This document shows, in pieces, positions 20,154 to 33,712 of a stretch of 64,000 nucleotides of DNA (positions are counted from its first letter, which is position 1; each line of letters opens with the position of its first letter). The translations under genes were made by a program, and so were the position numbers. This stretch comes from Gammaproteobacteria bacterium Milos-ODIII6 (GTDB taxonomy: Bacteria; Pseudomonadota; Gammaproteobacteria; Chromatiales; Chromatiaceae), in the NCBI GenBank assembly GCA_029228645.1, contig JAPTHR010000004.1, positions 1-64,000 on the forward strand, in the 5' to 3' direction. The notes beneath the pieces were generated by a model. That model did not search any database and was not told the origin of the DNA. It was given only the letters and a program-made list of their open reading frames with translations.

Positions 20154-21023
20154 TTACCACAGGAGTGCGCCCAAAGACGCACTGAAGACCCCTGCGGCGG
20201 TCAGAAGAAGTAAAGCAGGCCTGGGCGTCCGGCTGAACACGATGATCAGGCCTACGGCGGCAAATGGGACAAACAGAAACAGTTCCGGCAGTTTTCCGGC
20301 GAGCCAGATGGCGCTGGCAAAACTCAGCAGGGCGAGCAGGAAAAGCAGCCGCGATGCACGCACCGTGACAGCCGACCCATAGCGAACAGCGAAGGTGTGT
20401 TTTCCGGCAGCGCGGTCGGTCTCGATCTGCGGCGGCTGGTGTGAAAGGAGTAACGAGACCGCCAGGGACGCGAAAGTCAGCATCCCGATCAACGCCGGGC
20501 CGTCCACGTGCTCGAACGCCAGCAAATACAGGCACCCGAACACCCCCGGACCATAGCAAAGCCCGGTCACCCACTCGCCCAACACTGTGTAGGAAAGCGG
20601 GCGCTTGCCGGCATTGTAGAGATAGCCGAGCAGAACCATCGGTGTGGCGATCCACAATATCCAGAGTTTGTCGCCGAACACCAAGGTGGCCACACCGAGC
20701 GTCACCCCAAGCACGCTGCTGATCGCGCCATGCACCAGAGCGACGCGTGTATCGCCCCCATGAGCACGAATCCAGGAATCGAACTTTTCGGTATCTGCCC
20801 CGAGCCGCCAGTCACTGACGTCGTTAAAGACGTTGATGGCATGCTGTAACAGCACCACCGCGGCGGTGGCGCAAACAAGGCCGGCCCACCAGATTTCCTG
20901 GCGGGCCAGCAGAATCACACCAAGGGCCGGCAGCAGCGAAACCAGGTAGATGGCCGGGTTGAGCGCCACCCCGATACCGGTTTTTGCCACTGCCTTTCCC
21001 TGGAGGTTGGATCCAACCTCCAT
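20154..21023 (-). CDS. UbiA-family prenyltransferase, MenA-like
   Basis: This 289-residue integral-membrane protein attaches a polyprenyl chain to an aromatic ring. It has about eight hydrophobic helices. The first Asp-rich motif is NVFNDVSDWRLGAD near residue 65. The second is DRAAGKHTFAVRYG near 202, which resembles the DxxxGKxT form of MenA (naphthoate prenyltransferase) more than that of UbiA itself. It is the last gene of the eleven-gene cytochrome/NrfD operon, ten bases after the ferritin-like gene. The ATG at 21023 lies at the edge of a perfect 20-base palindrome; a GTG at 20990 is a plausible alternative start. It may make a quinone used by the two NrfD modules, which is an inference. 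Confidence 0.8.
   Translation of the reverse strand: MEVGSNLQGKAVAKTGIGVALNPAIYLVSLLPALGVILLARQEIWWAGLVCATAAVVLLQHAINVFNDVSDWRLGADTEKFDSWIRAHGGDTRVALVHGAISSVLGVTLGVATLVFGDKLWILWIATPMVLLGYLYNAGKRPLSYTVLGEWVTGLCYGPGVFGCLYLLAFEHVDGPALIGMLTFASLAVSLLLSHQPPQIETDRAAGKHTFAVRYGSAVTVRASRLLFLLALLSFASAIWLAGKLPELFLFVPFAAVGLIIVFSRTPRPALLLLTAAGVFSASLGALLW
21002..21021. repeat. Perfect 20-base palindrome at ubiA-like start
   Basis: The arms GGAGGTTGGA and TCCAACCTCC join without a loop. The palindrome directly follows the ATG at 21021-21023 and is preceded by seven T residues on the coding strand. It is not a terminator, since the T-run is on the wrong side. It could be a protein-binding site or a hairpin that hides the GGAGG sequence. 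Confidence 0.65.
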
Positions 21024-21035
21024 CAAAAAAACGGC

Positions 21036-21593
21036 TCAGGCGGTTGCCGCGAGTTCCTGGCGATAGTCGTGCAATGCCGTTTCGAACCACTGCGCATGCT
21101 GCTGCTCAGAGTCGATCACGCGTTGATAGACGTCGGCGGACCGCTGGTCGCCGTCCGCAATCGCCTGATCGCGGAAGCGCGGATAGATATCGAGATACTC
21201 GCGCTCCTCCACCCGGATCGCCACCATCAAGGCCTTTTCCAGCACACCTTCCGGGTTCATGGCCATCAATTCATCGCAGTTGGCGCGGATGGTCTCGAGT
21301 GCTTCGACTGCACGCGCGGTATCCTCGCCACGCTCCGGCGTTCCCATGTCGCTGTAGACCTCGCGCAGCCAAACCGCATGCAGGCCCTCCTCACCGGCCA
21401 CCTTGGAGAACAGACGCGCCAGATCGGGGCGACCAGCGGTCCTCGCCCAGCGGGCAAATTCGGGATACATGATCTTGTTTTCGTATTCCTCGACATCCAT
21501 GAACGAGGCAGCCGTGCCGGTACGATCGTCGCACTGTTGCGCAGCGGCAAAGCATTGGAAGATCATTTCTTCGGTGATTTCCGGTTTACTCAT
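21036..21593 (-). CDS. Ferritin-like diiron protein
   Basis: This 185-residue protein has a four-helix ferritin/rubrerythrin-like fold with repeated carboxylate and histidine positions. It reads EEYENKIMYPEFARWA near residue 35, KVAGEEGLHAVWLREVY near 64, IRVEEREYLDIYPRF near 126 and SEQQHAQWFETAL near 162. The E...EExxH pairs are those of a diiron site. There is no C-terminal rubredoxin domain and no signal peptide, so it should be cytoplasmic. Family members act in peroxide reduction, iron handling or specialised oxidations. It sits between the rhodanese-like lipoprotein and the MenA-like gene in the sulfur operon. The ATG at 21593 is preferred because an upstream start would read through promoter-like sequence. 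Confidence 0.7.
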   Translation of the reverse strand: MSKPEITEEMIFQCFAAAQQCDDRTGTAASFMDVEEYENKIMYPEFARWARTAGRPDLARLFSKVAGEEGLHAVWLREVYSDMGTPERGEDTARAVEALETIRANCDELMAMNPEGVLEKALMVAIRVEEREYLDIYPRFRDQAIADGDQRSADVYQRVIDSEQQHAQWFETALHDYRQELAATA

Positions 21594-21673: not shown

Positions 21674-22432
21674 TCAGCAACCTTCGCCAATCAGCAGCCG
21701 GGATTTGGGTTTGGCCGACTGCATGGCTGGCCCCAGGCCGAGGCCCAGCCCGAGCCCAAGGCTATCCCCAGCGGCGCCACTCTCGCCAGCCCCGGCCGGC
21801 CCGAGTCCCACATCGAGCCCCAGGCCCAGGGTATCGCTTGCGGCTGCCGGCTGCAGCGGTGGCGTATATCCCCCGGCGCGATGGACCGGCTTGACCGACA
21901 AGCCGGCAGCAGCCACGTAATCGCCTTCAAACCAGCAGGAGACCGCCTGTTGGCGCGCCATATCCGCCGCCTCCTCCCCGTCTTTGGCCGCGCCGCTCAC
22001 ATTGCGCATCTGTTCTTTCCAGGCCTTGTGACCACCGGAAAGAAAATACGCATTCACCCCCGCAAGCCGCAGCAGGGTGGCGGTCTGCGCCGCCACGTCG
22101 CTGTTCTCGGAGTACAGGATGATATCCCGTCCCTGCGGGAGGCTCGCCTGCCCTTCTGCGGACAGCAGCACAGCGCTCGAGGAGGCCTCCGAGGTGCGAA
22201 TGCGATCATCCTCCTGTTCGGCTCCCGAGCGGATATCGAGCAAAAGGTAGTCGCCACGACGCTCGAGGACACGTCCGGACAAGCTATCCACATCAATGGC
22301 ATGGTCCTGGCGGGCAATGCCTTCGGCGATCACGCCAAGGGACTCGTGACTGTCCGTTTGAGGGGCGAACTGGTCGCAAGCAGTAAGCAACAAGGCAAGA
22401 GAGATGGCAATTATTCTACTCAGCATGGTCAT
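21674..22432 (-). CDS. Rhodanese-like lipoprotein lacking catalytic Cys
   Basis: This 252-residue protein starts with a lipoprotein signal (ISLALLLTAC, lipid Cys19). A rhodanese-like domain spans about residues 40-145: DYLLLDIRSGAEQ, DIILYSENSDVAAQTATLL and AYFLSGGHKAW. The catalytic loop normally begins with Cys. Here Ser108 takes its place, so sulfur transfer by the usual mechanism is not possible. The last 60 residues are low-complexity: DTLGLGLDVGLG, then LGLGLGLGLG, and the chain ends in EGC. It follows the second NrfD gene by ten bases. It may bind rather than transfer sulfane sulfur, or tether the complex to the membrane. Both ideas are inference. Confidence 0.72.
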   Translation of the reverse strand: MTMLSRIIAISLALLLTACDQFAPQTDSHESLGVIAEGIARQDHAIDVDSLSGRVLERRGDYLLLDIRSGAEQEDDRIRTSEASSSAVLLSAEGQASLPQGRDIILYSENSDVAAQTATLLRLAGVNAYFLSGGHKAWKEQMRNVSGAAKDGEEAADMARQQAVSCWFEGDYVAAAGLSVKPVHRAGGYTPPLQPAAASDTLGLGLDVGLGPAGAGESGAAGDSLGLGLGLGLGPAMQSAKPKSRLLIGEGC

Positions 22433-22442
22433 TTCCCCGTAG

Positions 22443-23453
22443 TCATCGCAACCGCTCGAGCAGCCCAGGATCGTATTGGACGGTGTATTCGCTCCAGGTG
22501 CTGGCCTGACCGATATCGAGGGTCACCTGACGAAGCAGGTACCCCCCAAACAACACCAGTAAGGGTGCCAACAGCACCAGACTGCGGCCACCACGGATCT
22601 CCCAAAGCTCGAGCAACAGAGGCACGGCGAGTCCGACGGTAACGAACAACACCCAGAAGATCAGCGCAAATGGCCCGTCCGGATAAGTGATCAACTGCAA
22701 TGCCTGCAACTGAGCCTGTGCACCGCTGGCCAGGCCGACGATGAGCAGCCCCACGAGGAGCAGTTCGACCGCGAGCAGACCGGCATCGATCTTCGCAAAC
22801 GCATGCCGTTCACCCTTGTGGCGCGCAAACAGAATGATCAGGGCGGCTGCCGCCGAGACCCCGGAAACAAGAAAGAGGGGACCCAGGATAGCCGTGTTCC
22901 AGAAAGGACGGGCGCTGAAGGTACTCAGCAACACCCCGGTATATATCCCCAGTGACACGGCGATCGGAATCGACCAGAGCATGATCGCCCGCCGGTAACG
23001 CTGGGAAACATCGAACGCGGCACCCAACCATCTGCCGAACAGGGGCAGGCGCTCCAGCCAGGCAGCGAATCCGGGGTAACCACCGCGCAGGGTGGCGGCA
23101 ATCTGGGCCACGCTGAGCGGGTAAACAAGCAACAGAACCCAGGACCCCCAGGACATCGGCGAAGCCGGCTGCAGCGTGGTATAGAAGCGAAAAACGTAAA
23201 GCTTGTGCTCCAGATCCAGGAACAGGGTGGTCATGCCCGCCGAAAGGACGACCGGGGCCCACAGCGCGAGACGATACGCGGTGAAAGGTCGCTCCTGCGG
23301 ACTACCCTGAAGGTGAACCAGGGCGACGAACAGCATGATCCCGGCAGTGAGACCACCGAGGAAAAGGTAAACCGCCACCTCCCAGGTCCAGATCCCGAGT
23401 GATGGATCAACCAGGGCATTGGAACGGGCCGTGCTGAGTACCTCTTCGATCAT
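22443..23453 (-). CDS. NrfD/PsrC-type membrane subunit
   Basis: This 336-residue protein of the NrfD/PsrC family forms the quinone-binding membrane anchor of molybdoenzyme complexes. It begins near WTWEVAVYLFLGGLTAGIML, typical of the family, and has about eight to nine hydrophobic helices, with LFLDLEHKLYVFRFY between helices 2 and 3. It follows the four-cluster Fe-S gene by nine bases, which in turn follows the molybdoenzyme gene. The three make a standard PsrABC-like complex: catalytic subunit, electron-transfer subunit, membrane anchor. Electrons could run to or from the quinone pool. Confidence 0.85.
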   Translation of the reverse strand: MIEEVLSTARSNALVDPSLGIWTWEVAVYLFLGGLTAGIMLFVALVHLQGSPQERPFTAYRLALWAPVVLSAGMTTLFLDLEHKLYVFRFYTTLQPASPMSWGSWVLLLVYPLSVAQIAATLRGGYPGFAAWLERLPLFGRWLGAAFDVSQRYRRAIMLWSIPIAVSLGIYTGVLLSTFSARPFWNTAILGPLFLVSGVSAAAALIILFARHKGERHAFAKIDAGLLAVELLLVGLLIVGLASGAQAQLQALQLITYPDGPFALIFWVLFVTVGLAVPLLLELWEIRGGRSLVLLAPLLVLFGGYLLRQVTLDIGQASTWSEYTVQYDPGLLERLR

Positions 23454-23462
23454 GGCGATTCC

Positions 23463-24005
23463 CTAGACCAGGTAGAACACATTGGGCTTGTTGCCCGTTT
23501 CCGGCATCAGTGTCTTGTAGTTCCGGCTGAGCAAGAGTTTCGACACATCGCTTCCCGGATCATCGAGCAGACCGAAATGCATGCAATGGGTGGGACATGT
23601 TGAAACACACGCCGGATCCAGTCCTTTTTCAACCCGGTGGTGGCAGAAGGTGCATTTGTCGATATAGCCCTCCGGGTGCATCACCAGGCGTGCGTCGTAG
23701 GGACAGGCGGCGATGCATGCCTTGCAGCCAGTACATTTATCCGCGTCCACCAGGACGATATTGCTATCGTTCCACTGGTGACTGGCGCCGGTGGGGCACA
23801 ACAGCACACAGGTCGCATGGCTGCAGTGGTTGCAACGTTCGGAGCGAAACTCGGTGCGCAAATTGGGATAGCGGCCACTGGTGGCTTCCACCACCCAGTC
23901 CCGGTTGAGCCCCACCGGCACCTTGTTTTCGCTCTTGCAGGCAACCACGCAATCACCGCAGCCGATGCAGGTGCGCGTATCGATGACCATGGCATAAGTA
24001 CGCAT
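23463..24005 (-). CDS. Four-cluster Fe-S electron-transfer subunit (PsrB-like)
   Basis: This 180-residue ferredoxin-type subunit should carry four [4Fe-4S] clusters. Cysteine groups are visible as CIGCGDCVVAC near residue 14, CNHCSHATCVLLCP near 58, CTGCKACIAACP near 91 and CTFCHHRVEKGLDPAC near 118. This is the DmsB/PsrB/NrfC layout. There is no signal peptide, so it would be exported in complex with the Tat-targeted molybdoenzyme encoded just upstream (four bases apart). It should pass electrons between the molybdenum subunit and the NrfD anchor. Confidence 0.88.
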   Translation of the reverse strand: MRTYAMVIDTRTCIGCGDCVVACKSENKVPVGLNRDWVVEATSGRYPNLRTEFRSERCNHCSHATCVLLCPTGASHQWNDSNIVLVDADKCTGCKACIAACPYDARLVMHPEGYIDKCTFCHHRVEKGLDPACVSTCPTHCMHFGLLDDPGSDVSKLLLSRNYKTLMPETGNKPNVFYLV

Positions 24006-24009
24006 AGGC

Positions 24010-26181
24010 TCAGGCTTCCAGCAATCGGACGAAATTGGCCCGCATGCCGGTACTTCCGGCGATCGGGTCGATCTTGACGTTGGTGATCAGGGCCGCATCG
24101 TCCGCGCCGACGCCATGTGTCAGGCGCATGCCTTTGGCGTCATGACCGAAACCATGCACCATGAACACCGCATTGGGCGCGACGCGCTCGGTGACACGTA
24201 CCCGAATCCGGTTACTGGTCACGCCGTCCTGGTTGCGCAGGCGTATGTAGTCACCGTTGCTGATGCCATGCTCAGCGGCCGCACGCGGATTGATCCAGAC
24301 ATTGTTCTCCGGCATCAGCTCGAATAAAACCGGGTTGTTGGTGGTCCGCCCGAAGGTATGCGCGGGTGCCCGCCCGTAGATAAGGTAGTAGTGATCGGCA
24401 GGTGGCTCCTGCGGTGGCGTGTAGCGCGGAAGCGGGTCATAACCGGCTTCGGAGAGCAGACTGGAGTAGAGCTCGATCCGGCCGCTGGGTGTCTTGAAGC
24501 GACGCTCCTCCCCCTCGGAGAAGTACATCGGGGTCTTGCGCGGATACATCTTCACCCCGATCCGCTGCATCTCCTCCAGTGAACTTCCAACCTGTTGGAG
24601 CTGCCAGTCCAGGACCTCTGCATAGTCTTTCCAGGGAAAGTATTCTTCCAGCCCGAGCCGCTGCGCGAGCGCCTTGGCCATCCACCACCCGGGTTTTGTT
24701 TGATCGCGGGGCTCGAACGCCGGACTGCGCAATGCCAGGCTCGGGACGCGCTCCGGCGCATTGCGCAGGTCGTCGTAGCGCTCCAGGTAGGTGCACTCGG
24801 GCAGTATCACATCGGCATAGCCGGTGATCTCGGCCGGCTGCGTCTCCACCACCACCAGAAGTTCCAGGCTGTCAGCGGCCTGCTGCAGACGATCGCGAAT
24901 ATTCGGGACAGTCAAAGGCAAATTGGTGGCGTAGACGAACAGCCCTTTCACATAGGCATCCGGCCCGATCGCCGCCTCGATGACCGCCTGGCTCAGCCCC
25001 GATGGAGCGAGCGGGAAATCGGCCTGCACCCTCGCCTTCCAGTCGCTTTTCGCCTTTGGCGGCTTGGGTGCCGGATAGGCCGGCAGATCGACCTTTTCCT
25101 GGATGTAGAAACCGCCTTTGCGCCCCCACGAGCCGAGTAGCGCATTGAGGATCGCGATGGCGCGTCCACGCTGGGTATCGTCGCCGTACCAGGTGGTGTG
25201 GCGCCCCGGATGAACCATGCTGGCCGGCGCATGACTGGCCATTGTACGCGCGGTTTCCCGAATCAGACCCGGCTCGAGACCGGTCTCGAGGTAGGCCCAT
25301 TCCGGGCTGAAAGGCTGCACATGATCGCGTAGCTGCTCGAAGCCGGTGGCATAGCGTTGAATGTAATCCTTGTCGTACAGATCCTCGTTGATCAGCACGT
25401 TCATCCACGCGAGCAACAGCGCAATGTCGGTACCGGGACGGATGGGAAGCCAGTGATCGGATTTGCCGGCGGCAACCGAGAACCGCGGATCCACGGTGAT
25501 CAGAGAAGCGCCCTGGTCCAGCGCCTGGGTAAGTGTCTGCACCTGGCCGTTGTGCAGGTTCTCGCCGATGTGAGAACCGATCAGCACGATACAGCGCGAG
25601 TGCTGCATGTCGGTACGGTCGGGCGAGCCAACCCCCTCACCATAGGTCAGCGCGAAGGCCACCTCACGCGGCCCACGGCATTGTGCGTACGAGGGGTGCG
25701 CGTAAACATGTGAGCCATAGGCTTTCAACAGTCGTTCGAAGTGCTTGCCGCCGGAACCATGCGACAGCAGAGCGACCCGGTCCCGGCCGTGACGCTCGCC
25801 AATGGCACGCATTCGGGTGGCGATGAAATCCAGCGCCTCCTCCCACGAGACCGGCTCGAAGCTGTCCTTGCCGTTGCGGCCTACCCGCATCAATGGCTGC
25901 TTGAGGCGGTCGCGATCCTCGTACGCGCCGAGCCCACCGCTGCCGCGGGTGCAAAGGCGCCCCATGGAATGCGGGTCGTCCGGGTTGCCGGTGATCTTCC
26001 AGGGCTCGCCGTCTTCGCTGTGCACCATGCCGGCACACTTCCAGAAACAGATGTCGCATACAGTCGGACTGACAGCGACCTTGCCATCACCCGGCAGTGG
26101 GCGCGGGGCACAACCGGACAGCAACATGCTCGGCGTTGCCACGCCCAACCCGGATATCTTGATGAATTCGCGACGGTTCAT
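24010..26181 (-). CDS. PsrA/PhsA-like molybdopterin oxidoreductase
   Basis: This 723-residue periplasmic molybdoenzyme belongs to the DMSO-reductase superfamily. The N-terminus has both a twin-arginine motif (RREFIK, residues 3-8) and a lipobox LSGC (Cys24), so it may be a Tat-exported lipoprotein. An Fe-S cluster is bound by Cys42, Cys45, Cys49 and Cys77 (CDICFWKCAG ... RLCTRG). YAQCRGPREVAF places Cys168 as the molybdenum ligand, as in polysulfide, thiosulfate and nitrate (Nap) enzymes and unlike the Ser or Asp enzymes. The C-terminal cofactor domain includes YLIYGRAPAHTFGRTTNNP. It lies between a triple rhodanese gene and PsrB/PsrC-like genes. A sulfur-compound substrate is likely but not proven; arsenate and tetrathionate enzymes are alternatives. 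Confidence 0.85.
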   Translation of the reverse strand: MNRREFIKISGLGVATPSMLLSGCAPRPLPGDGKVAVSPTVCDICFWKCAGMVHSEDGEPWKITGNPDDPHSMGRLCTRGSGGLGAYEDRDRLKQPLMRVGRNGKDSFEPVSWEEALDFIATRMRAIGERHGRDRVALLSHGSGGKHFERLLKAYGSHVYAHPSYAQCRGPREVAFALTYGEGVGSPDRTDMQHSRCIVLIGSHIGENLHNGQVQTLTQALDQGASLITVDPRFSVAAGKSDHWLPIRPGTDIALLLAWMNVLINEDLYDKDYIQRYATGFEQLRDHVQPFSPEWAYLETGLEPGLIRETARTMASHAPASMVHPGRHTTWYGDDTQRGRAIAILNALLGSWGRKGGFYIQEKVDLPAYPAPKPPKAKSDWKARVQADFPLAPSGLSQAVIEAAIGPDAYVKGLFVYATNLPLTVPNIRDRLQQAADSLELLVVVETQPAEITGYADVILPECTYLERYDDLRNAPERVPSLALRSPAFEPRDQTKPGWWMAKALAQRLGLEEYFPWKDYAEVLDWQLQQVGSSLEEMQRIGVKMYPRKTPMYFSEGEERRFKTPSGRIELYSSLLSEAGYDPLPRYTPPQEPPADHYYLIYGRAPAHTFGRTTNNPVLFELMPENNVWINPRAAAEHGISNGDYIRLRNQDGVTSNRIRVRVTERVAPNAVFMVHGFGHDAKGMRLTHGVGADDAALITNVKIDPIAGSTGMRANFVRLLEA

Positions 26182-26187
26182 GGCTAC

Positions 26188-27498
26188 TCAGAAGCTGATG
26201 TTTCCGGCCGCGTCGAAATGCGTGGTCTCGTTGAGAAAGCGCGCCTTGAAACCATTCTTGCGCAGCGTCTGGTAGGCCATCTCCGCGCGGATGCCGTTCT
26301 CGCAGAAAGAAATGATTTCCTTGTCGGCAGGCAATTCCTTGATACGCGCGCCTAGCTGATCGAGAGGAATATGCCGCGCCCCCTTGAGCGCCCCCTGTTT
26401 GATCAGTTCCGCGTCGGTACGCACATCCAGAAAAACGATGGCCGCTGGTTCGGCAAGAAGATCCTTGAATACCTGTGGCTCGATCGCGCCTTTCACCGGT
26501 TTCTTGCTGTAGCGGATGCTCGCGGCCAGCTGGCCCGAATCCAGCGGCAGACCATCGGCCTGCCATGACTTCATGCCACCCTCGAGTACCGCGACGTTGC
26601 TATAGCCCCACGAGCGGAGTTCTTTGTAGGCAAGCAGCACACCCCGGTCTGCCTGGGTATCCCCATACAGAATGATGGGCGCCCGGGTGTCGCTGACGCC
26701 CGGCAGACGGGCCACTTTCTGCTGTGCGATGAAGCTTTCCCGCATTGCACTCAGCTTCGCATCGGTAAGATTGACGGCGCCCGGGAGATGAGATTTCGCC
26801 GACACCGCTGGGTTCCTGACATCGATCACCACGTGGTGCGGATCGAGATTGCCGGCCAGCCAGTCGCGGCTCGCATGCAGCGGCAATTTCGCCTTCTTCC
26901 AGCCCGGCATCCCCTGCTGGAATCCCTTGACGTTGGTGTAACCGGCGTCGGTGGCGATCTTCACGGCCTTCTGGGTGAACGGACAGGTGGGCCCCCCGCA
27001 ATAGAACACGACCAATTGCCCCTTGTCCTGCGGCAGTTTTTTGAGCAACCCGTCCGCATCGGAAACCGCAGTGGAAACGGCCGAGGGGATATGCGACGGC
27101 CCGAACTTTTTCGCCGGTCGCGCGTCGCCGAGCAGATAGGGGCCACGCTGCTGCTGCAGGATAGCGAGCATTTCCCGTATATCGATCTCCACACCGGGCG
27201 GCAGCCCGAATACGACCTTGGTAATGATCGTGGCTCGCAGCTCAGGGCTGACCTCCACTTTAATCAGATCCTGCGGCGAGAGCTCCTTTATCCCGGAAAC
27301 CCCTTCATAGCGGGTGCTGGCATCGAAAGACACGACCACCGGGTCGCTGCCTTTCACATCCACCTGGATGGTGCTGGCCTTGTTGGAGATGTACATGATC
27401 CGACCTTTCAGCATCTCGCCCATGACGGGGCCAGTCGCCACCAGACTCATGAACAGAAGAATAAAGACCGACGAGGAGAGGCCGGTGGTTTTGTTCAT
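26188..27498 (-). CDS. Exported three-domain rhodanese
   Basis: This 436-residue protein has a signal peptide ending near ATGPVMG (residue 27) and a beta-rich N-terminal segment. Three rhodanese domains follow. Domain 1 has a catalytic loop at Cys167 (VVFYCGGPTCPFTQ). Domain 2 reads IILYGDTQADRG and lacks the Cys. Domain 3 has Cys399 (ISFCENGIRAEM). It therefore has two potentially active sulfur-carrying cysteines flanking a dead domain. The start at 27498 is chosen because an earlier ATG would break the signal peptide. It lies seven bases before the molybdoenzyme gene and seven after the first NrfD gene. It probably delivers or accepts sulfane sulfur for the molybdoenzyme in the periplasm. 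Confidence 0.85.
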   Translation of the reverse strand: MNKTTGLSSSVFILLFMSLVATGPVMGEMLKGRIMYISNKASTIQVDVKGSDPVVVSFDASTRYEGVSGIKELSPQDLIKVEVSPELRATIITKVVFGLPPGVEIDIREMLAILQQQRGPYLLGDARPAKKFGPSHIPSAVSTAVSDADGLLKKLPQDKGQLVVFYCGGPTCPFTQKAVKIATDAGYTNVKGFQQGMPGWKKAKLPLHASRDWLAGNLDPHHVVIDVRNPAVSAKSHLPGAVNLTDAKLSAMRESFIAQQKVARLPGVSDTRAPIILYGDTQADRGVLLAYKELRSWGYSNVAVLEGGMKSWQADGLPLDSGQLAASIRYSKKPVKGAIEPQVFKDLLAEPAAIVFLDVRTDAELIKQGALKGARHIPLDQLGARIKELPADKEIISFCENGIRAEMAYQTLRKNGFKARFLNETTHFDAAGNISF

Positions 27499-27505
27499 TA
27501 CGGCA

Positions 27506-28756
27506 TTACCTCTTTTCAGGTGATACGGGACAAATAGGGGAAGGGGCATCCACACCCGGTCTCCGCAGATTGCCACATTCGATGGGGAGGGCAGCCTTTA
27601 CCAGCAGGGTGAACAGCAGCAGCCCCATCCCCCAGATGCCCAGGGAAACAGCAATCTCGGGAAAACTCGGCGTGTACTCGTAGATCTCGCCGATCGGGGT
27701 CGGCACATAAGCCGGGATAACCATGCCCATGCCTTTCTCGATCCACACACCGACCACGGTCAGTACGCAGGCGACATTCAGGAGGAACACATTGTTACGC
27801 AGCACGTGCACCGACCCGATAAAGGTGGCGATGCCAATCAGCAGCAATGCCGTCCAGATCCAGGGGGTGAGCGCATCGAAACCGTTCAGGCCCAGATACA
27901 GGTACCGGGCGGAGGCCGCATGCTCACCCTCGTTATAGAACTCGGTGAACAATTCGACCCCGATCAGGAACAGCGTGATCTGCAGTGACACGGTCATCAC
28001 AATCGCCAACAGTTTGATCACGCTCTGCGGGACGGGATAGTTGCTGATCGAGCGGATCAGCTGCAGCCCCAGGATCATGAGCGCAGGCCCCGAGCAAAAG
28101 GCCGAGGCGATGAACCTCGGGGCCAGCAGCGGATTGCTCCAGAAGGGCCGCCCGGTATTGGCCGAATAGAGAAACGCGGTCACGGTGTGAATGCCGATCG
28201 CCAGGAATATCCCAACGATCACGAACGGGAAGTAATGCCGCAGTTTCGGATCGCAACCGCCATAGTGGCAGGAGATGATGTAGAAAGAGATACCCATGTT
28301 GAGCAGCAGGTAGCCGTTGAGAACAACGACATCCCAGGCGAGCATGGATTCGGGGAAGTTGAAGATGCCGATCCCCGGGATCAGGTGCCAAAGCCGGTCG
28401 GGACGGCCGACATCGACCACCACGAACATGATCGCCATGAACACCGCCGCGATCGCCATGGTCTCACCCATCAAGACCACGTCCTTGATGTCTTTACGAT
28501 GGAAGATGTAGGCGGGAATGGTCACCATGACGGCCGCCGCCGCGATGCCCACCAGGTAGGTGAAATTGGCGATGTAAAAGCCCCAGGACACCTGGTTGCT
28601 CATATGGGTGACCACCAGGCCCTGAATCACCTGCTGGGCATAAAACCACACGCCGAGCGCAATCATCAGCAGCAGCACCGCCACCCAGGCCCAATACCGC
28701 CAGGAGCCGGTCAACATTTCCCGGAAGGCATCGCGAAAGAGGTATAGCAGGGTCAT
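27506..28756 (-). CDS. NrfD-family quinone-site membrane protein (DsrP-like)
   Basis: This 416-residue NrfD-family protein is longer than PsrC and similar in form to DsrP/HmcC-type subunits, with about ten transmembrane helices. Visible segments include GFYIANFTYLVGIAAAAVM, GETMAIAAVFMAIMFVVVDVGRPDR and FNFPESMLAWDVVVLNGYLLL, all typical of the family. It follows the Tat Fe-S gene by 12 bases. That pairing, with the tetraheme cytochrome upstream, looks like a membrane redox module linking periplasmic cytochromes to the quinone pool. It is separate from the PsrC-like subunit in the same operon. Confidence 0.87.
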   Translation of the reverse strand: MTLLYLFRDAFREMLTGSWRYWAWVAVLLLMIALGVWFYAQQVIQGLVVTHMSNQVSWGFYIANFTYLVGIAAAAVMVTIPAYIFHRKDIKDVVLMGETMAIAAVFMAIMFVVVDVGRPDRLWHLIPGIGIFNFPESMLAWDVVVLNGYLLLNMGISFYIISCHYGGCDPKLRHYFPFVIVGIFLAIGIHTVTAFLYSANTGRPFWSNPLLAPRFIASAFCSGPALMILGLQLIRSISNYPVPQSVIKLLAIVMTVSLQITLFLIGVELFTEFYNEGEHAASARYLYLGLNGFDALTPWIWTALLLIGIATFIGSVHVLRNNVFLLNVACVLTVVGVWIEKGMGMVIPAYVPTPIGEIYEYTPSFPEIAVSLGIWGMGLLLFTLLVKAALPIECGNLRRPGVDAPSPICPVSPEKR

Positions 28757-28768
28757 GGCTGCGTGTCC

Positions 28769-29680
28769 TCAGGCATCGCGGTAGTACCAGAACTTGGGTT
28801 CGGTGCCGAGTTCCTCCTTGAGGCGGAACACGGCCTTGTGCTCCAACACGTAGCGTATCTCGCTGTTCGGATCGAGCAGGTTGCCGAACACCCGGGCGCC
28901 GGTCGGACAGGCCTCCTGGCAGGCGGGCTGACGCCCCTCACGGGTCCGCTGGACACAGAAATGGCATTTCTCGACGACCCCCTTGGGCCGGGGGCGGTTG
29001 CCGAGGTAGTGCGTCTTGGCGTTGATCTCTTCCGGCGGAAGCTTGGGGTTCCCCCAATTGAAATGACGCGCCTGGTAGGGACAGGCGGACATGCAGTAGC
29101 GACAACCGATACACCAGTCATAGTCGACTACCACGATGCCATCCGGCTCGGTCCAGGTGGCCTCCACCGGACAGGCCTTGACGCAGGGCGGATTGTCACA
29201 CTGCATGCACTGCATGGGTAGGTAGTAATGGCCCTCGCGCGGAACCTCCTCGGATGCGAAGTAATGGTCAGCGTGCAACAGATCCAGGCTGCCATCGGGC
29301 ATCTCGAGCACACGAATGTACTGGGTGTCGCGGCTCAGGTTGTTCTCTTGCACACAGGCATGCACGCAGTCCCGATACCCGCGACACTTCGAGATATTGA
29401 TCGCGTAACCGAAGACCACGTTCTCCTTTGCCGGCGTGTTGGCGCAGCTGATGTCCACCCCGTAACGCCGCTTGGCTTTGCGCTCGATCCGTTCGAGGGT
29501 GTCCGCGATCTCCTCGGCAGTCATGCGCTGATAATGCGCCTGGAAGAAATCGGCAAAGGCATCGCTCAGGGTATTGCCGCCCCAGGCAGGCATCGCAGCG
29601 GCGGCCCCGCTGGCAGCCGCGACGGATGCGACGCCCTTGAGGAAATGACGGCGCGCCAGATCTGTTTTGTCGCTACTCAT
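28769..29680 (-). CDS. Tat-exported Fe-S protein (DsrO/HybA-like)
   Basis: This 303-residue protein has a twin-arginine signal (RRHFLKG, residues 10-16) followed by an Ala-rich segment. It then carries four [4Fe-4S] cysteine groups: Cys99/105/109, Cys158/161/166/170, Cys190/193/196/200 and Cys239/242/254/258. In the first group the second Cys is replaced by Tyr102 (CRGYRDCVHAC), so one cluster may be a [3Fe-4S] or have another ligand. It overlaps the tetraheme cytochrome stop by four bases and precedes the DsrP-like gene by 12. It should pass electrons from the c-type cytochrome to the NrfD subunit on the periplasmic side. Confidence 0.87.
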   Translation of the reverse strand: MSSDKTDLARRHFLKGVASVAAASGAAAAMPAWGGNTLSDAFADFFQAHYQRMTAEEIADTLERIERKAKRRYGVDISCANTPAKENVVFGYAINISKCRGYRDCVHACVQENNLSRDTQYIRVLEMPDGSLDLLHADHYFASEEVPREGHYYLPMQCMQCDNPPCVKACPVEATWTEPDGIVVVDYDWCIGCRYCMSACPYQARHFNWGNPKLPPEEINAKTHYLGNRPRPKGVVEKCHFCVQRTREGRQPACQEACPTGARVFGNLLDPNSEIRYVLEHKAVFRLKEELGTEPKFWYYRDA

Positions 29681-30489
29681 GAGCCACTCTCCGGCTTGTT
29701 ATCCAGCCGCTTTTCCCAGCTCGCCTCATGGCGCGGGTATTTACTTTGACGCTGCGCCGCAGGCACCCAGTGTTCGGGACGTGGCAATTGCATACGAATT
29801 TCCGGACCAGGCATCGCGGTACGCGGATTCCAAGCCGGGGCATGCTGGTAGTGACAGGCCGTGCAGTTGTACACAACGCGCTCACCCTCCCAATTGCCGA
29901 CGCGCTTGCCGTGCACGCCATAAGCCCAGTCACGCGCCTGATTCACGTGGCATTGGCTGCACAGGATGTAGGCATCCTCGAACGGAAGCGCCTCGCCTTC
30001 CATGGTGCGCAGTTGGCGATCCTTGCCATTATCGTGACAGCTGAAGCACCAGAACTGCCCCTTGCCATGCAGGCCATGTTTCAGCTCGAAATTGTCATGC
30101 GGCGGGTTGAGCTTCCGCGGCGTGGTCATCGCCTCCTGCCATTCGTGGCAATTACTGCAGGGGTGCATGTCCTTGTCGATGCGACTCGGGATCACTTTGA
30201 ATTCCGGCATGCCCGTGAACAGGCTGTAGACCTGATGCGCTTCCCGTTGCATATCCGGCTGGGTGACGTCGTCCTTACTGGGCCGCTGCATCGGAACAGA
30301 GGCCGGCACCTCGCGCACGCTCTCCTGGGGCGTGGTCGGGGTGTCATCGAGTGCCTCGATGGCACCCCAGTCCCAGTCAGACGTCAGCGCACCGCTCTCG
30401 TCCGCACTCGAGGCGGAAACCCAGCAGGAGACCAGCAGGGCCGATAGAATCAGCCCTCCTGCAATACGCACACGTCCAAGCAAAGGCAT
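29677..30489 (-). CDS. Periplasmic tetraheme cytochrome c
   Basis: This 270-residue cytochrome has a signal peptide (LSALLVSCWVSASSADES) and four CXXCH heme motifs: CSNCH, CFSCH, CSQCH and CTACH, spread over residues 110-215. The region before the first heme (to about residue 100) is Pro- and Asp-rich and probably flexible. Several other His residues could be distal ligands. It is translationally coupled to the Tat Fe-S gene. This arrangement of cytochrome, Fe-S protein and NrfD matches known quinone-linked periplasmic electron conduits. It does not resemble DsrJ closely, since DsrJ is a triheme protein. Confidence 0.87.
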   Translation of the reverse strand: MPLLGRVRIAGGLILSALLVSCWVSASSADESGALTSDWDWGAIEALDDTPTTPQESVREVPASVPMQRPSKDDVTQPDMQREAHQVYSLFTGMPEFKVIPSRIDKDMHPCSNCHEWQEAMTTPRKLNPPHDNFELKHGLHGKGQFWCFSCHDNGKDRQLRTMEGEALPFEDAYILCSQCHVNQARDWAYGVHGKRVGNWEGERVVYNCTACHYQHAPAWNPRTAMPGPEIRMQLPRPEHWVPAAQRQSKYPRHEASWEKRLDNKPESGS

Positions 30490-30520
30490 GGGACCTGGCT
30501 CTCAAAGTTATCGATTCAAC

Positions 30521-31804
30521 TCAGAGCCTCACTTCAGCCGACGCGGCAAGCTTGGGCCGCAACAGATCCTCCGGCAGCTTGCCCTTCATCTGCGCCTTGA
30601 TTGGCGGCAGCAACAGGTCATACAGGGCCTCCGCACGGACGATGGCGATCTTCTCCCCGTTGATCGGGATGTCGTACTTCAGGGTGCGGCTTTCATTGGG
30701 CGCCAGGCGGGTGTCGGCCAGGACCTGGGTCGCCATCGGCGGACTGGTGGGCTTGCCGGCAGTGTCGCCCAGGGTGTACCAGAAGGCAGCCTGGGGATCG
30801 TCCTTGATCGGGTGCACCTTGTAGTTCTTCCACAGCTCCTTCCCGTCCTTGTCATACGCGGCAAGTTTGACGAAGAAATTGCGGAACGGCGCACCCGTGG
30901 GATAGGAATGAGGCAAACGATTGCGCACCGTGATCTCGGCACGGATGTTGCCCCCGTCGGCCTTGGCCTGCATCGTCATTGCCAGACCACGCGTGATCAT
31001 CTTGCCATCGTGGCCTCCACCCATGCTGTGATCGGCTATCGAGACGTACTTACCCGGAACGACCTTGCCATTCTCCATCTTGGGAACCGACACAATTCCC
31101 ATGTGGCAGGCCTGGCAGCTGATGAAGTTCTTCGAAGTCCGATATTCGTTGCCGGTGCGGCAAAGGGGCGTGCCATGCGGATTGGAGCGCTTCTCGTGGC
31201 ACCCCATGCAGGCATCGTTGCTCTTGAAAAGCTCGGCACCATTGCCCTGGAGGGGTTGTGGATGATGCGTCGGTGTGGGCCACTTCGCCCCTTCCGCCAC
31301 ACGCTCGGTTGTGTAGGTATTCCCGGAAGGTCCATGCAACGATGCGCTATCGATTTCATAGGCATCGACCCCGTACAGAGGCTTGCCATCGGGCGTGTCA
31401 GTGCCTTTGAAACTCTTGAAACTGTGACAGGTGACGCAGGAGATGCCATTGGCGTAGGCGGCCGTATCGTCCAGCTTGGTCTTGCCATCGATAGCCGCTA
31501 CCGGTGCGTGACACTTCAGGCAGACGGGGTAAGCGCCCTTCTTGTTGCGCACGCCCTCCTCCGCGGGATCACCCATGACCTTCTTATAGAAGGCGCCGTG
31601 GATAGGGTCTTTTACCGCCGAACTTTGCGCATGCATCGATCCAACCCATTGGGTGTAGATCTCCTCATGACACTGCTTGCAGGTCTCGGGCTTGATATGG
31701 TGCAGCGAACTGACCTGCTTCTCCCCCGCCTGCGCGGCGACGGACAAAAACAGACACGCGAGCGCGAGGAATGAAAAACGAGTGGAACATGCTGATAGAC
31801 GCAT
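30521..31804 (-). CDS. Secreted pentaheme cytochrome c
   Basis: This 427-residue protein has a signal peptide (FLALACLFLSVAAQAGE) and five CXXCH motifs: CKQCH, CLKCH, CVTCH, CMGCH and CQACH, all in the first 245 residues. The arrangement resembles cytochrome c554-like multiheme proteins. The C-terminal 180 residues contain no heme and look like a beta-sandwich domain (IRAEITVRNRLPHSYPTGAPFR). The ATG at 31804 is used; upstream in-frame codons run through the promoter. It is the first gene of the operon, 31 bases before the tetraheme gene. It may be the terminal oxidase or reductase module or an electron acceptor. No substrate is evident. Confidence 0.83.
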   Translation of the reverse strand: MRLSACSTRFSFLALACLFLSVAAQAGEKQVSSLHHIKPETCKQCHEEIYTQWVGSMHAQSSAVKDPIHGAFYKKVMGDPAEEGVRNKKGAYPVCLKCHAPVAAIDGKTKLDDTAAYANGISCVTCHSFKSFKGTDTPDGKPLYGVDAYEIDSASLHGPSGNTYTTERVAEGAKWPTPTHHPQPLQGNGAELFKSNDACMGCHEKRSNPHGTPLCRTGNEYRTSKNFISCQACHMGIVSVPKMENGKVVPGKYVSIADHSMGGGHDGKMITRGLAMTMQAKADGGNIRAEITVRNRLPHSYPTGAPFRNFFVKLAAYDKDGKELWKNYKVHPIKDDPQAAFWYTLGDTAGKPTSPPMATQVLADTRLAPNESRTLKYDIPINGEKIAIVRAEALYDLLLPPIKAQMKGKLPEDLLRPKLAASAEVRL

Positions 31805-31972
31805 GACGGTCCTCCTTTGTTGATTGCCAGGCCCTCTCGTCCTGCGTCTGCAGAAGTAAGGGCACTTTGGCGTGAACTGGGACTGCGTCACGCGTTTATT
31901 GGGTATACCCTTACAAAAGTAACGGAAAAAAAGTGGAAGCGAATTCGGGAAAACACCCACATCGGGCGTGTT
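31805..31972. promoter_or_regulatory. Divergent promoter region of cytochrome genes
   Basis: This 168-base gap lies between the start of the eleven-gene operon and the undecaheme gene. A perfect palindrome GGGTATACCC at 31901-31910 lies near its middle and is flanked by T- and A-rich stretches (TTTATT before it, TTACAAAAGTAACG after it). The palindrome is a good candidate operator that could control both transcripts. No well-matched sigma-70 boxes were identified by eye. Confidence 0.5.
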
Positions 31973-33712
31973 ATGGCTAATCCAGGTTATGGGTTCACCC
32001 GGCAAGAGCCTCGCCGAGTTCGCTTCTCCAGGATTAAAACCATCAAACCGTATTTGTTCTCTTGCCTCTGGCTGTGCATTTCACTGCTGCTCACTTGTGG
32101 ATCCGCTGGCGCCGGGGCTGTCGCTTGCACAGCTTGCCATTCCGGGGGGACAAGTGATTTGCACCCGATGCACCGTTTCGATTCCAAACCCTGCGCCTCG
32201 TGCCACCAGGGCGACGAGGCCACGAGCGACCAGACCGCAGCCCATCAGGGGCTGATCGCTTCGCCGGGGGAACTGGAGAATGCCTCGGTAAGCTGCGGTG
32301 ATTGCCATCGGGGCCATGTCGACACCGTACTAGCCAGCCCGATGCATACCGGGCATGGCATGGTGCGAGCAACCCGCGAAGCCCTGCAGAAACATAAGAA
32401 GACCCCACACCGACCGGCAAGCCTGCAGGCCCTGGGCCATGACCTCGCAGACGGTCTTTTGCGCAAACAATGCGCATCGTGTCATCTGGGACAGACTCGT
32501 CGCGTCGATGCGTCCATCGATCCATTGGCGGCCCGTGGCGGCGGTTGCCTGGCCTGCCATCTGAAAACAGGCGCCGCCCATCCACGCCTGGACATCCATA
32601 TCGGCGATGAACGCTGCCTCGGATGCCATTCACGGTCTGGCCGGATATCCCTCGCCTATGCCGGGCTCGCCGAGGTGGATAGCGGCACCGCCACCCGCAA
32701 TCCCGCCGGCATTGCCCGCCTGGGAGATGGCCGACTGGTCAGACAGCAACCCGCAGACGCGCATCACCGCGCCGGCCTGGCCTGCATCGACTGCCATACC
32801 GGACCCGGTCTGATGGGTTTCCTTGCGCATGACGGAGGAAACAGCAGCATCGATATCGCCTGTACCGACTGCCACGACAACCGGAACCCGCGCGCCCGGC
32901 TCAACGGGAAACAGGGCGCAACATCACCGGGGGATCAGCAGCCGCCTTACGCTCACGAACCGGAGCATGCGTTCCTGACCACTGCCAACGGAACCGTCCT
33001 CTGGCATATCCAGCTCGACGGCGATCAGGCCTACCTTCATCCCAAACACGGCGGACAAGCTGTACGCATACCGCATGCCGGAGAAGACCACGTTCCGTTA
33101 CTGGAGAGCCATGAGCGCCTGAGCTGCGACGCCTGTCACGCCCAATGGGTGCCCAGGTGCCTGGGCTGCCACCTGGAATACGATCCAGACAGTGAGCAAT
33201 GGGATCACCTGGAACAACGGGTGACCCCGGGACGTTGGAAGGAGAAACGTTGGGACACGGATGCCGGCGAGCCAGTACTGGGCATGCGGGACCAGGAAAC
33301 GATCGATACCTTTGTGCCCGGCATGATCCTGACCGCGACCCACCCGAGCCTGGAGGAGCCGCTGTTTCTGCGCCGCTTCACGCGACTGTCCCCACACACC
33401 ACGGGAAAGGCGCGCGGGTGTGATAGCTGCCACCGGTCGAGCTCACTGCTGGGGCTGGGCAGTGGCAAGCTGGAGTGGAAGGGAGAGGCCCTGCATTTCA
33501 CACCCAGCGTGCGCAAACTCCAGGATGGCCTGCCCATGGACGCCTGGACCTGTCTCGACGACGATTGCAATGCCTCTTCCGGGCAAGCCTACCCGGGACC
33601 GCTGAAGGCCTCGCAAATCGAACGGATCTTGAGGGTCTCGACCGACCTCACCGCGCCCGCCCGTTCCGGGCAGGCCCGTAAAAAGGAAACACCCCGCCAC
33701 TCGGACGAGTAA
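31973..33712 (+). CDS. Membrane-anchored undecaheme cytochrome c
   Basis: This 579-residue protein has a single N-terminal hydrophobic segment (YLFSCLWLCISLLLTCG), probably an uncleaved anchor or a signal peptide. Eleven CXXCH motifs follow: CTACH, CASCH, CGDCH, CASCH, CLACH, CLGCH, CIDCH, CTDCH, CDACH, CLGCH and CDSCH. The ATG at 31973 is preferred; a longer frame from 31817 would cover the shared promoter. The last 130 residues have one heme and a C-X4-C pair. It is divergent from the eleven-gene operon and probably works with it. I do not recognise a named family. It may carry electrons across or along the envelope, or bind a substrate. Confidence 0.83.
   Translation: MANPGYGFTRQEPRRVRFSRIKTIKPYLFSCLWLCISLLLTCGSAGAGAVACTACHSGGTSDLHPMHRFDSKPCASCHQGDEATSDQTAAHQGLIASPGELENASVSCGDCHRGHVDTVLASPMHTGHGMVRATREALQKHKKTPHRPASLQALGHDLADGLLRKQCASCHLGQTRRVDASIDPLAARGGGCLACHLKTGAAHPRLDIHIGDERCLGCHSRSGRISLAYAGLAEVDSGTATRNPAGIARLGDGRLVRQQPADAHHRAGLACIDCHTGPGLMGFLAHDGGNSSIDIACTDCHDNRNPRARLNGKQGATSPGDQQPPYAHEPEHAFLTTANGTVLWHIQLDGDQAYLHPKHGGQAVRIPHAGEDHVPLLESHERLSCDACHAQWVPRCLGCHLEYDPDSEQWDHLEQRVTPGRWKEKRWDTDAGEPVLGMRDQETIDTFVPGMILTATHPSLEEPLFLRRFTRLSPHTTGKARGCDSCHRSSSLLGLGSGKLEWKGEALHFTPSVRKLQDGLPMDAWTCLDDDCNASSGQAYPGPLKASQIERILRVSTDLTAPARSGQARKKETPRHSDE

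Follow-up and report, generated by a model that had tools for sequence, protein, structure and literature searches.

Sud is a secreted protein that is thought to pass polysulfide sulfur to PsrA, and it works via a Cys in its rhodanese loop. In DsrC, the sulfur-carrying Cys sits on a flexible C-terminal arm, at its tip or close to it. The arm of SoxY has the motif GGCGG. For SoxY, a swinging arm has been described, a flexible C-terminal segment that holds the sulfur on a Cys at its tip or close to it (PMC11237559; this source and those marked "in part" below were available in part, and statements based on them are limited to the available text).

Rhodanese genes are also known from the surroundings of psr operons. 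In Desulfurivibrio alkaliphilus, the rhodanese DaAHT2_0417 occurs with the psr operon and has been proposed to function in sulfur binding and transfer (PMC5016858, in part). The Psr operon of Desulfurivibrio dismutans contains a three-domain rhodanese (RS06465) and is reported to be strongly upregulated in sulfur disproportionation (PMC12142623, in part), and in a relative within the Ignavibacteria psrABC is followed by genes for a PF04143 transporter and a rhodanese (PMC6338057, in part). Rhodanese genes that accompany psr operons have thus already been described as sulfur donors or carriers. Because no rhodanese is reported near the psr clusters of Deferribacter autotrophicus (PMC6896113, in part), a gene of the type considered here does not belong to every psr operon. 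We found no account, in open-licence PubMed Central papers, of a rhodanese that has lost its loop Cys and bears a terminal Cys. Likewise, there is no mention of such a rhodanese in the available text of PMC12481199, PMC6620896, PMC10100899, PMC7331816, PMC6896113, PMC3534657, PMC11896075, PMC13047784, PMC12545173 or PMC12998232.

Here we analyze a protein of this kind, a Cys-less rhodanese lipoprotein that we abbreviate LP. Our main reading, to which we assign a probability of roughly 0.6 on the basis of sequence conservation, gene order, gene fusions and predicted fold, is that LP is probably anchored in the membrane and works as a swinging arm, with sulfane sulfur borne on its terminal Cys to PsrABC or away from it. 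LP is encoded in the window, i.e., the whole stretch of 64,000 nucleotides that was analyzed, among the following genes.

20154-21026 (-): UbiA/MenA-like prenyltransferase (PF01040; NCBIfam MenA-type matches below the cut-off)
21036-21593 (-): rubrerythrin-like protein (PF02915)
21674-22432 (-): LP, 252 amino acids, fourth gene in the PsrABC block
22443-23453 (-): PsrC, NrfD-type membrane subunit (PF03916)
23463-24005 (-): PsrB, 4Fe-4S subunit (PF13247)
24010-26181 (-): PsrA, molybdopterin catalytic subunit (PF00384, PF01568, PF04879; twin-Arg start by eye)
26188-27501 (-): three-domain rhodanese, two domains with Cys loops, signal-like start by eye (PF00581, three stretches)
27506-28756 (-): second NrfD-like membrane protein (PF03916)
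28769-29680 (-): second 4Fe-4S protein (PF13247)
29677-30489 (-): small multiheme c-type cytochrome (CxxCH motifs in the translation)
30521-32005 (-): multiheme cytochrome with a cytochrome c554 domain, true start unsure (PF13435 on 30524-31804)

In the direction of transcription, the three-domain rhodanese is followed by PsrA, PsrB, PsrC and LP, and then by the rubrerythrin-like and UbiA-like genes. A MopB catalytic subunit, a 4Fe-4S subunit and an NrfD subunit are present in one block, as in PsrABC enzymes, and polysulfide is the presumable substrate; the substrate specificity of Psr-family enzymes cannot be told from sequence (PMC3534657, in part). The two Desulfurivibrio loci resemble this one in having a rhodanese gene with PsrABC that is proposed to bind and transfer sulfur. 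However, the published descriptions, in the part available, are of ordinary sulfur transferases; they mention no loss of the loop Cys and no Cys at the C-terminus. RS06465, with its three domains, would correspond to the window's three-domain rhodanese and not to LP. The C-terminal residue of this three-domain rhodanese is not Cys, which counts against a carrier role for LP.

The following features were located within the LP gene.

22376-22378 (-): codon of the lipobox Cys19 (LTAC), from the translation
22004-22315 (-): rhodanese domain, residues 40-143 (PF00581, AlphaFold, PDB rhodanese folds)
22109-22111 (-): codon of Ser108, at the place of the catalytic Cys (translation and alignment)
21935-21937 (-): codon of the internal Cys166, within RQAVSCWFEGDY (alignment)
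21737-21829 (-): Gly-Leu low-complexity stretch, residues 202-232, lineage-specific
21677-21679 (-): codon of the terminal Cys252 (GEGC-COOH), the invariant feature

The LP reading frame is open throughout, and its translation ends in GEGC, followed by a TGA stop. Residues 16-19 read LTAC, which from general knowledge we take to be a lipobox, and a helix spans residues 2-18 in the AlphaFold model; lipidation itself is a prediction. The Pfam rhodanese family PF00581 matches residues 59-140 with 30.9 bits, against a cut-off of 22.2. In the AlphaFold model, which was built on the 58-row alignment described below, block-mean pLDDT is 90-97 for residues 41-140 and 52-54 for residues 201-252; the rhodanese domain is predicted to be ordered, and confidence in the tail is low. 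The rhodanese part, when compared with the PDB, matched solved rhodanese folds with Z up to 16.8. Among the PDB matches is 1qxn (E 7.2e-6), listed as 'sulfide dehydrogenase', which we take to be Sud, the polysulfide-sulfur transferase of Wolinella succinogenes. The rhodanese fold is common to Sud and LP, but Sud has a loop Cys, whereas LP lacks it and has a conserved Cys at the chain end. The LP loop reads LYSENSD, with Ser108 at the catalytic position, and the tail holds two Gly-Leu stretches, LGLGLDVGLG and LGLGLGLGLG. Against NCBIfam, LP gave four matches (MoeZ/MoeB types and rhodanese_LYCAU), all far under the cut-off, and ExtH was not among them.

Homologues were collected in several ways. 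A search with LP alone in 93 related genomes, its own included, found one other full-length homologue (43% identity, E 2.5e-37), which also lies behind PsrC and PsrB genes and keeps the Ser, an FEGDY motif, the Gly-Leu stretches and GEGC. A two-row profile added four homologues from 210 genomes of the order, and a six-row profile without the tail added seven from 369 genomes of the class. All of these first 13 LPs, the window's included, end in Cys; the catalytic place holds Ser in 12 and Gly in one (L047), and the Gly-Leu repeat is missing from five (L043-L047). In a phylum-wide sample of 398 genomes, the six-row profile matched nine further genomes, with the matches confined to the rhodanese part. 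A PsrA profile found two distant Psr-like loci in a phylum-wide sample of equal size, and the LP profile had no match around them. A search of the genome contig collection with LP alone found no relative, and a PsrA-anchored search of the same collection succeeded.

Sampling was anchored on PsrA because we wished to avoid selection by the LP tail. The PsrA proteins of eight LP operons served as queries on the contig collection; 84 loci were confirmed, of which the best 80 were used. LP homologues beside PsrA were then sought with a profile of the rhodanese part alone. This yielded 67 matches in 64 loci, of which 57, together with the window's LP, form the 58-row alignment. Left out of it were L094 (broken frame), L099 and L150 (both cut by the contig end), L163 (a multi-domain rhodanese with Cys loops, beside a PsrA of 43% identity), the second and third matches of L154 and the second of L135, as well as L125, L134 and L157, which are complete and have Cys last or second to last. 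Catalytic-residue counts come from this alignment, and not from the profile alignment, which contains fragments of three-domain rhodaneses. Families of neighbour genes were defined by BLAST linkage, with one member per family checked with Pfam.

The conserved block is PsrA-PsrB-PsrC-LP. Where at least 3 kb lie downstream of PsrA, an LP-profile match is present in 60 of 62 loci, one of the 60 being the Cys-bearing L163. The two loci with no LP after PsrA despite this room, L102 (71% PsrA identity) and L164 (44%), count against LP as a sulfur carrier for the enzyme. L102 (contig JALSSO010000008.1, 85,908 bases) has PsrABC without LP; L048, which probably comes from the same contig, has a homologue of the Gly-Leu type about 25 kb from there, where the contig ends.

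Nearly every homologue has a Cys at its C-terminus or one residue before it. Of the 62 complete downstream matches in the best 80 of 84 loci, 55 have Cys as the last residue and 5 as the penultimate one. The two exceptions are L094, in which the -DDEGC end is found in another frame, and L163. Counted from the end over the 60 LPs that remain without these two, the commonest residues are Cys (55), Gly (47) and Glu (40), after which no residue reaches 21. In 28 of the 60, the end Cys is the sole Cys beyond residue 30. The invariant columns of the 58-row alignment are Asp66, Arg68 and the terminal Cys only. As a control, no PsrA (0/74), PsrB (0/71) or PsrC (0/64) in the same loci ends in Cys, and among other stop-to-stop ORFs of at least 300 amino acids in these loci, 10 of 807 do, six of them being YeeE-type tails. 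Since all 58 rows have Cys in the terminal column, at a mean column identity of 26%, compared with 10 of 807 control ORFs, we conclude that the terminal Cys is not there by chance. The thiol need not be on the very last residue, because Cys is second to last in 5 of the 60 LPs, which counts against the carrier reading in its strict form. The internal Cys166 column holds Cys in 25 of the 58 rows.

The catalytic column holds Ser in 49 rows, Gly in 4, Asp in 3 and Ala in 2, and never Cys, so the loop Cys of active and Sud-type rhodaneses is lacking throughout. LP keeps the rhodanese fold and the DxR motif without the nucleophile, and has a thiol at the tip of its arm. These results agree with the earlier note on this DNA as to the kept fold and the lost catalytic Cys. 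Its suggestion that the terminal Cys could stand in for the lost one also gains from the alignment, in which the terminal Cys is a conserved candidate for this replacement. The note had asked whether Ser and terminal Cys are conserved among homologues: in the 58-row alignment the Cys is without exception, and the Ser is replaced in some rows, although never by Cys. Homologues with the normal Cys and no tail, which it had named as evidence to the contrary, did not emerge as regards the Cys. We also considered selenocysteine, encoded by the TGA after GEGC, and rejected it: the stops of the 55 Cys-ending LPs are TGA in 32, TAA in 15 and TAG in 8, L015 has TGATGA, and the downstream letters are unconserved among the six compared.

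Two other features to which the earlier note drew attention have a narrower distribution. It had pointed out the Gly-Leu tail; the repeat is real, but with 14 carriers among 58 rows it is lineage-specific and does not define the family. In a PsrA tree of 60 rows, the 13 carriers fall within one gammaproteobacterial clade of 16 rows, and the distribution requires two changes, in the simplest case a single gain plus one loss, the latter in Wenzhouxiangella, whose L116 has the weak remnant HGLGLHLGVG. We therefore reject the idea that the repeat forms the functional core of LPs. The lipid anchor proposed in the note is supported for the window's LP by its LTAC lipobox; it is not universal, as 23 of 58 rows match a simple regular expression for a lipobox. 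Most LPs without the pattern have, by eye, a hydrophobic N-terminal stretch. In L015:1444-2259, a homologue of the Gly-Leu type, Trp replaces the lipobox Cys (LLAGW), so this protein may be helix-anchored instead.

The rows of the PsrA tree carry at least 10 phylum labels (Pseudomonadota, Ignavibacteriota, Calditrichota, Acidobacteriota, Spirochaetota, Bacteroidota, Gemmatimonadota, Planctomycetota, Bdellovibrionota, Myxococcota and Thermodesulfobacteriota). Single labels may be wrong, because nearly all rows are metagenome-assembled genomes. L108, titled Halobacteria archaeon, is placed among Gammaproteobacteria, and L165, titled Gammaproteobacteria, is placed among Ignavibacteriota and Acidobacteriota.

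Several other genes recur near LP. The three-domain rhodanese of the window is preceded by the second NrfD/4Fe-4S pair and two multiheme cytochromes (27506-32005 (-)), and members of this block also occur in L110, L112, L113, L119, L136, L140 and L172. The L136 homologue of the small multiheme cytochrome (L136:1729-2589) has Cytochrome_C7 and Cytochrom_c3_2 matches below the cut-off. Rubrerythrin homologues are present in 5 of the best 80 of 84 loci (L108, L113, L118, L136 and L140), and a UbiA homologue is labelled in L118 only. It is conceivable that the adjoining UbiA/MenA-like and rubrerythrin-like genes (20154-21593) help to supply Psr with quinone. A cytochrome of about 520-615 amino acids with about 11 or 12 Cys-His pairs adjoins LP in L093-L098, L101, L103, L104, L111, L116, L117 and L120; its BLAST cluster extends to 38 loci, and a few of the members lack such motifs. 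This adjacency suggests an electron-transfer link beyond the quinone pool. An outer-membrane protein of the FadL/TodX type (PF03349; L170:16100-17344), whose BLAST cluster is found in 8 of the best 80 of 84 loci, is possibly a route for hydrophobic sulfur. Finally, in L154:12769-14159, in a locus titled Flavobacteriaceae, two LP homologues are adjacent, both ending in -EGC.

A further neighbour is a YeeE/YedE half-transporter, whose BLAST-linked cluster, identified as PF04143 from one tested member (L146), occurs in 40 of the best 80 of 84 loci: between PsrC and LP in 30, and upstream of PsrA in 10. The former order is that of the PSRLC2-like psrABC operons of Ignavibacteria and green sulfur bacteria, although there the genes are named with no mention of Cys loss or a terminal Cys (PMC6338057, in part). 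In L144, L148, L151 and L161, the PF04143 half and LP form a single reading frame (in L151 the rhodanese match, at 21.0 bits, is just below the cut-off of 22.2). In addition, L170 has upstream a PF04143 half that is joined to a rhodanese with no Cys in its loop and with IGGC at its end. The -EGC end also appears on other scaffolds. It terminates the second YeeE half in L093-L098 and L103 (7 of the 12 halves of the upstream group). Similar ends occur on the three-domain rhodaneses of L133 (by Pfam; EEGC) and L166 (by similarity; SQGC), and on a 102-residue stop-to-stop ORF with no Pfam match in L126 (EEEEGC). A Pyr_redox_2 protein, SQR-like by our reading, is encoded in L170, and the window's genome has seven DsrC-family matches above the cut-off. 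The LP-YeeE fusions and the reuse of the -EGC end on YeeE support the view of LP as a swinging arm.

Other observations count against a carrier role. No YeeE half of the same cluster was found in the other 40 of the 80 loci, some of which are incomplete; the window's own operon has none, and one PF04143 gene lies elsewhere in its genome. The -EGC end is missing from the YeeE halves of L099, L100, L104, L107 and L167. Genuine DsrC (PF04358), with a Gly-Cys-Val end, counts in favour of the carrier role by its presence in L159 and L170, but was seen in these two loci only.

The same conserved chain-end Cys and natural YeeE fusions would also fit if the Cys formed a permanent disulfide or other covalent tether to PsrA, PsrC or YeeE, making LP a structural clamp, and the variable length of the linker is compatible with this. 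However, the four YeeE-fused LPs still keep a Gly-Cys end, so tethering to YeeE cannot be the sole reason for the Cys, and similar ends recur on other rhodanese and YeeE scaffolds. We therefore regard a clamp as unlikely, while taking it as the most serious competitor.

A second alternative concerns the substrate. The tail might bind zero-valent sulfur, selenium or arsenic, or deliver oxyanions, to an enzyme resembling selenite reductase, the Cys being a ligand and not a persulfide carrier. The srr operon of Bacillus selenitireducens also has rhodanese-domain proteins (a review, PMC12481199, in part), and PsrA, PhsA and SrrA form one lineage (PMC10100899, in part). Sulfur genes (YeeE/YedE, the Pyr_redox_2 protein, DsrC) lie near some of our loci, however, and the best solved match of the PsrA group profile is 2vpw, at 775.8 bits, far ahead of ArrA (6cz7) at 165.7 bits, which makes this alternative improbable.

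Close synteny with the Psr genes would also be expected of an assembly factor or chaperone for PsrA, acting, e.g., in cofactor sulfuration and outside the working enzyme, and a dead enzyme domain can serve as a binding module. Cofactor insertion into Tat-exported enzymes takes place in the cytoplasm, whereas LP has a lipobox or, by eye, a hydrophobic N-terminal stretch, and we consider such a factor distinctly improbable. That LP is merely a decaying rhodanese copy with a chance final Cys, as the loop Ser and low-complexity Gly-Leu repeats of the window's LP might suggest, is rejected with near certainty by the terminal Cys itself (58 of 58 rows; within the last two residues in 60 of 62 complete matches), the control ORFs and the same pattern under at least 10 phylum labels.

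If LP is indeed a swinging arm for sulfur, it would be a dedicated fourth partner of a PsrABC-type polysulfide reductase. PsrABC faces outward, and a lipid or helix would anchor LP at the outer face of the cytoplasmic membrane. The rhodanese domain, with catalysis lost, is probably a docking and persulfide-binding module, from which a flexible C-terminal arm ending in -Glu-Gly-Cys-COOH would extend. The Cys would be loaded with sulfane sulfur, as persulfide or polysulfide, and would carry it, in one direction or the other, between partners with which LP may make contact: the PsrA active site and, depending on lineage, the YeeE/YedE transporter or the three-domain rhodanese. What LP has in common with DsrC/TusE and SoxY is a flexible arm with a Cys at its tip or close to it, seen here in the end Cys of 60 of 62 complete matches and the low pLDDT of the tail; this likeness is one of analogy, not membership. 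LP differs in being anchored, in its rhodanese module and in its EGC arm end (GEGC in the window), and neither the DsrC profile PF04358 nor any SoxY family matched LP in Pfam at E up to 0.1.

The observation made in the window is real and is part of a wide pattern, and this pattern suggests an undescribed bacterial way of passing sulfur at the membrane. We see about even chances that it represents a new class of sulfur carriers on the outside of the membrane, in which a portable -EGC-COOH arm is borne by dead rhodaneses, multi-domain rhodaneses and YeeE/YedE transporters. In many phyla, this arm would relay sulfur between PsrABC on one side and, on the other, YeeE/YedE or a three-domain rhodanese. 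How zero-valent sulfur and polysulfide are passed to periplasmic reductases, and how they cross the membrane, is still an open question for sulfur respiration and disproportionation. A partner gene that is widespread and keeps a single Cys at the chain end offers a hypothesis that can be tested directly at one residue. It also follows that a 'rhodanese' label on a gene next to a psr operon may be misleading as to the location of the reactive cysteine. If the proposal is true, the -EGC-COOH arm would be the outside counterpart of the cytoplasmic DsrC and TusA.
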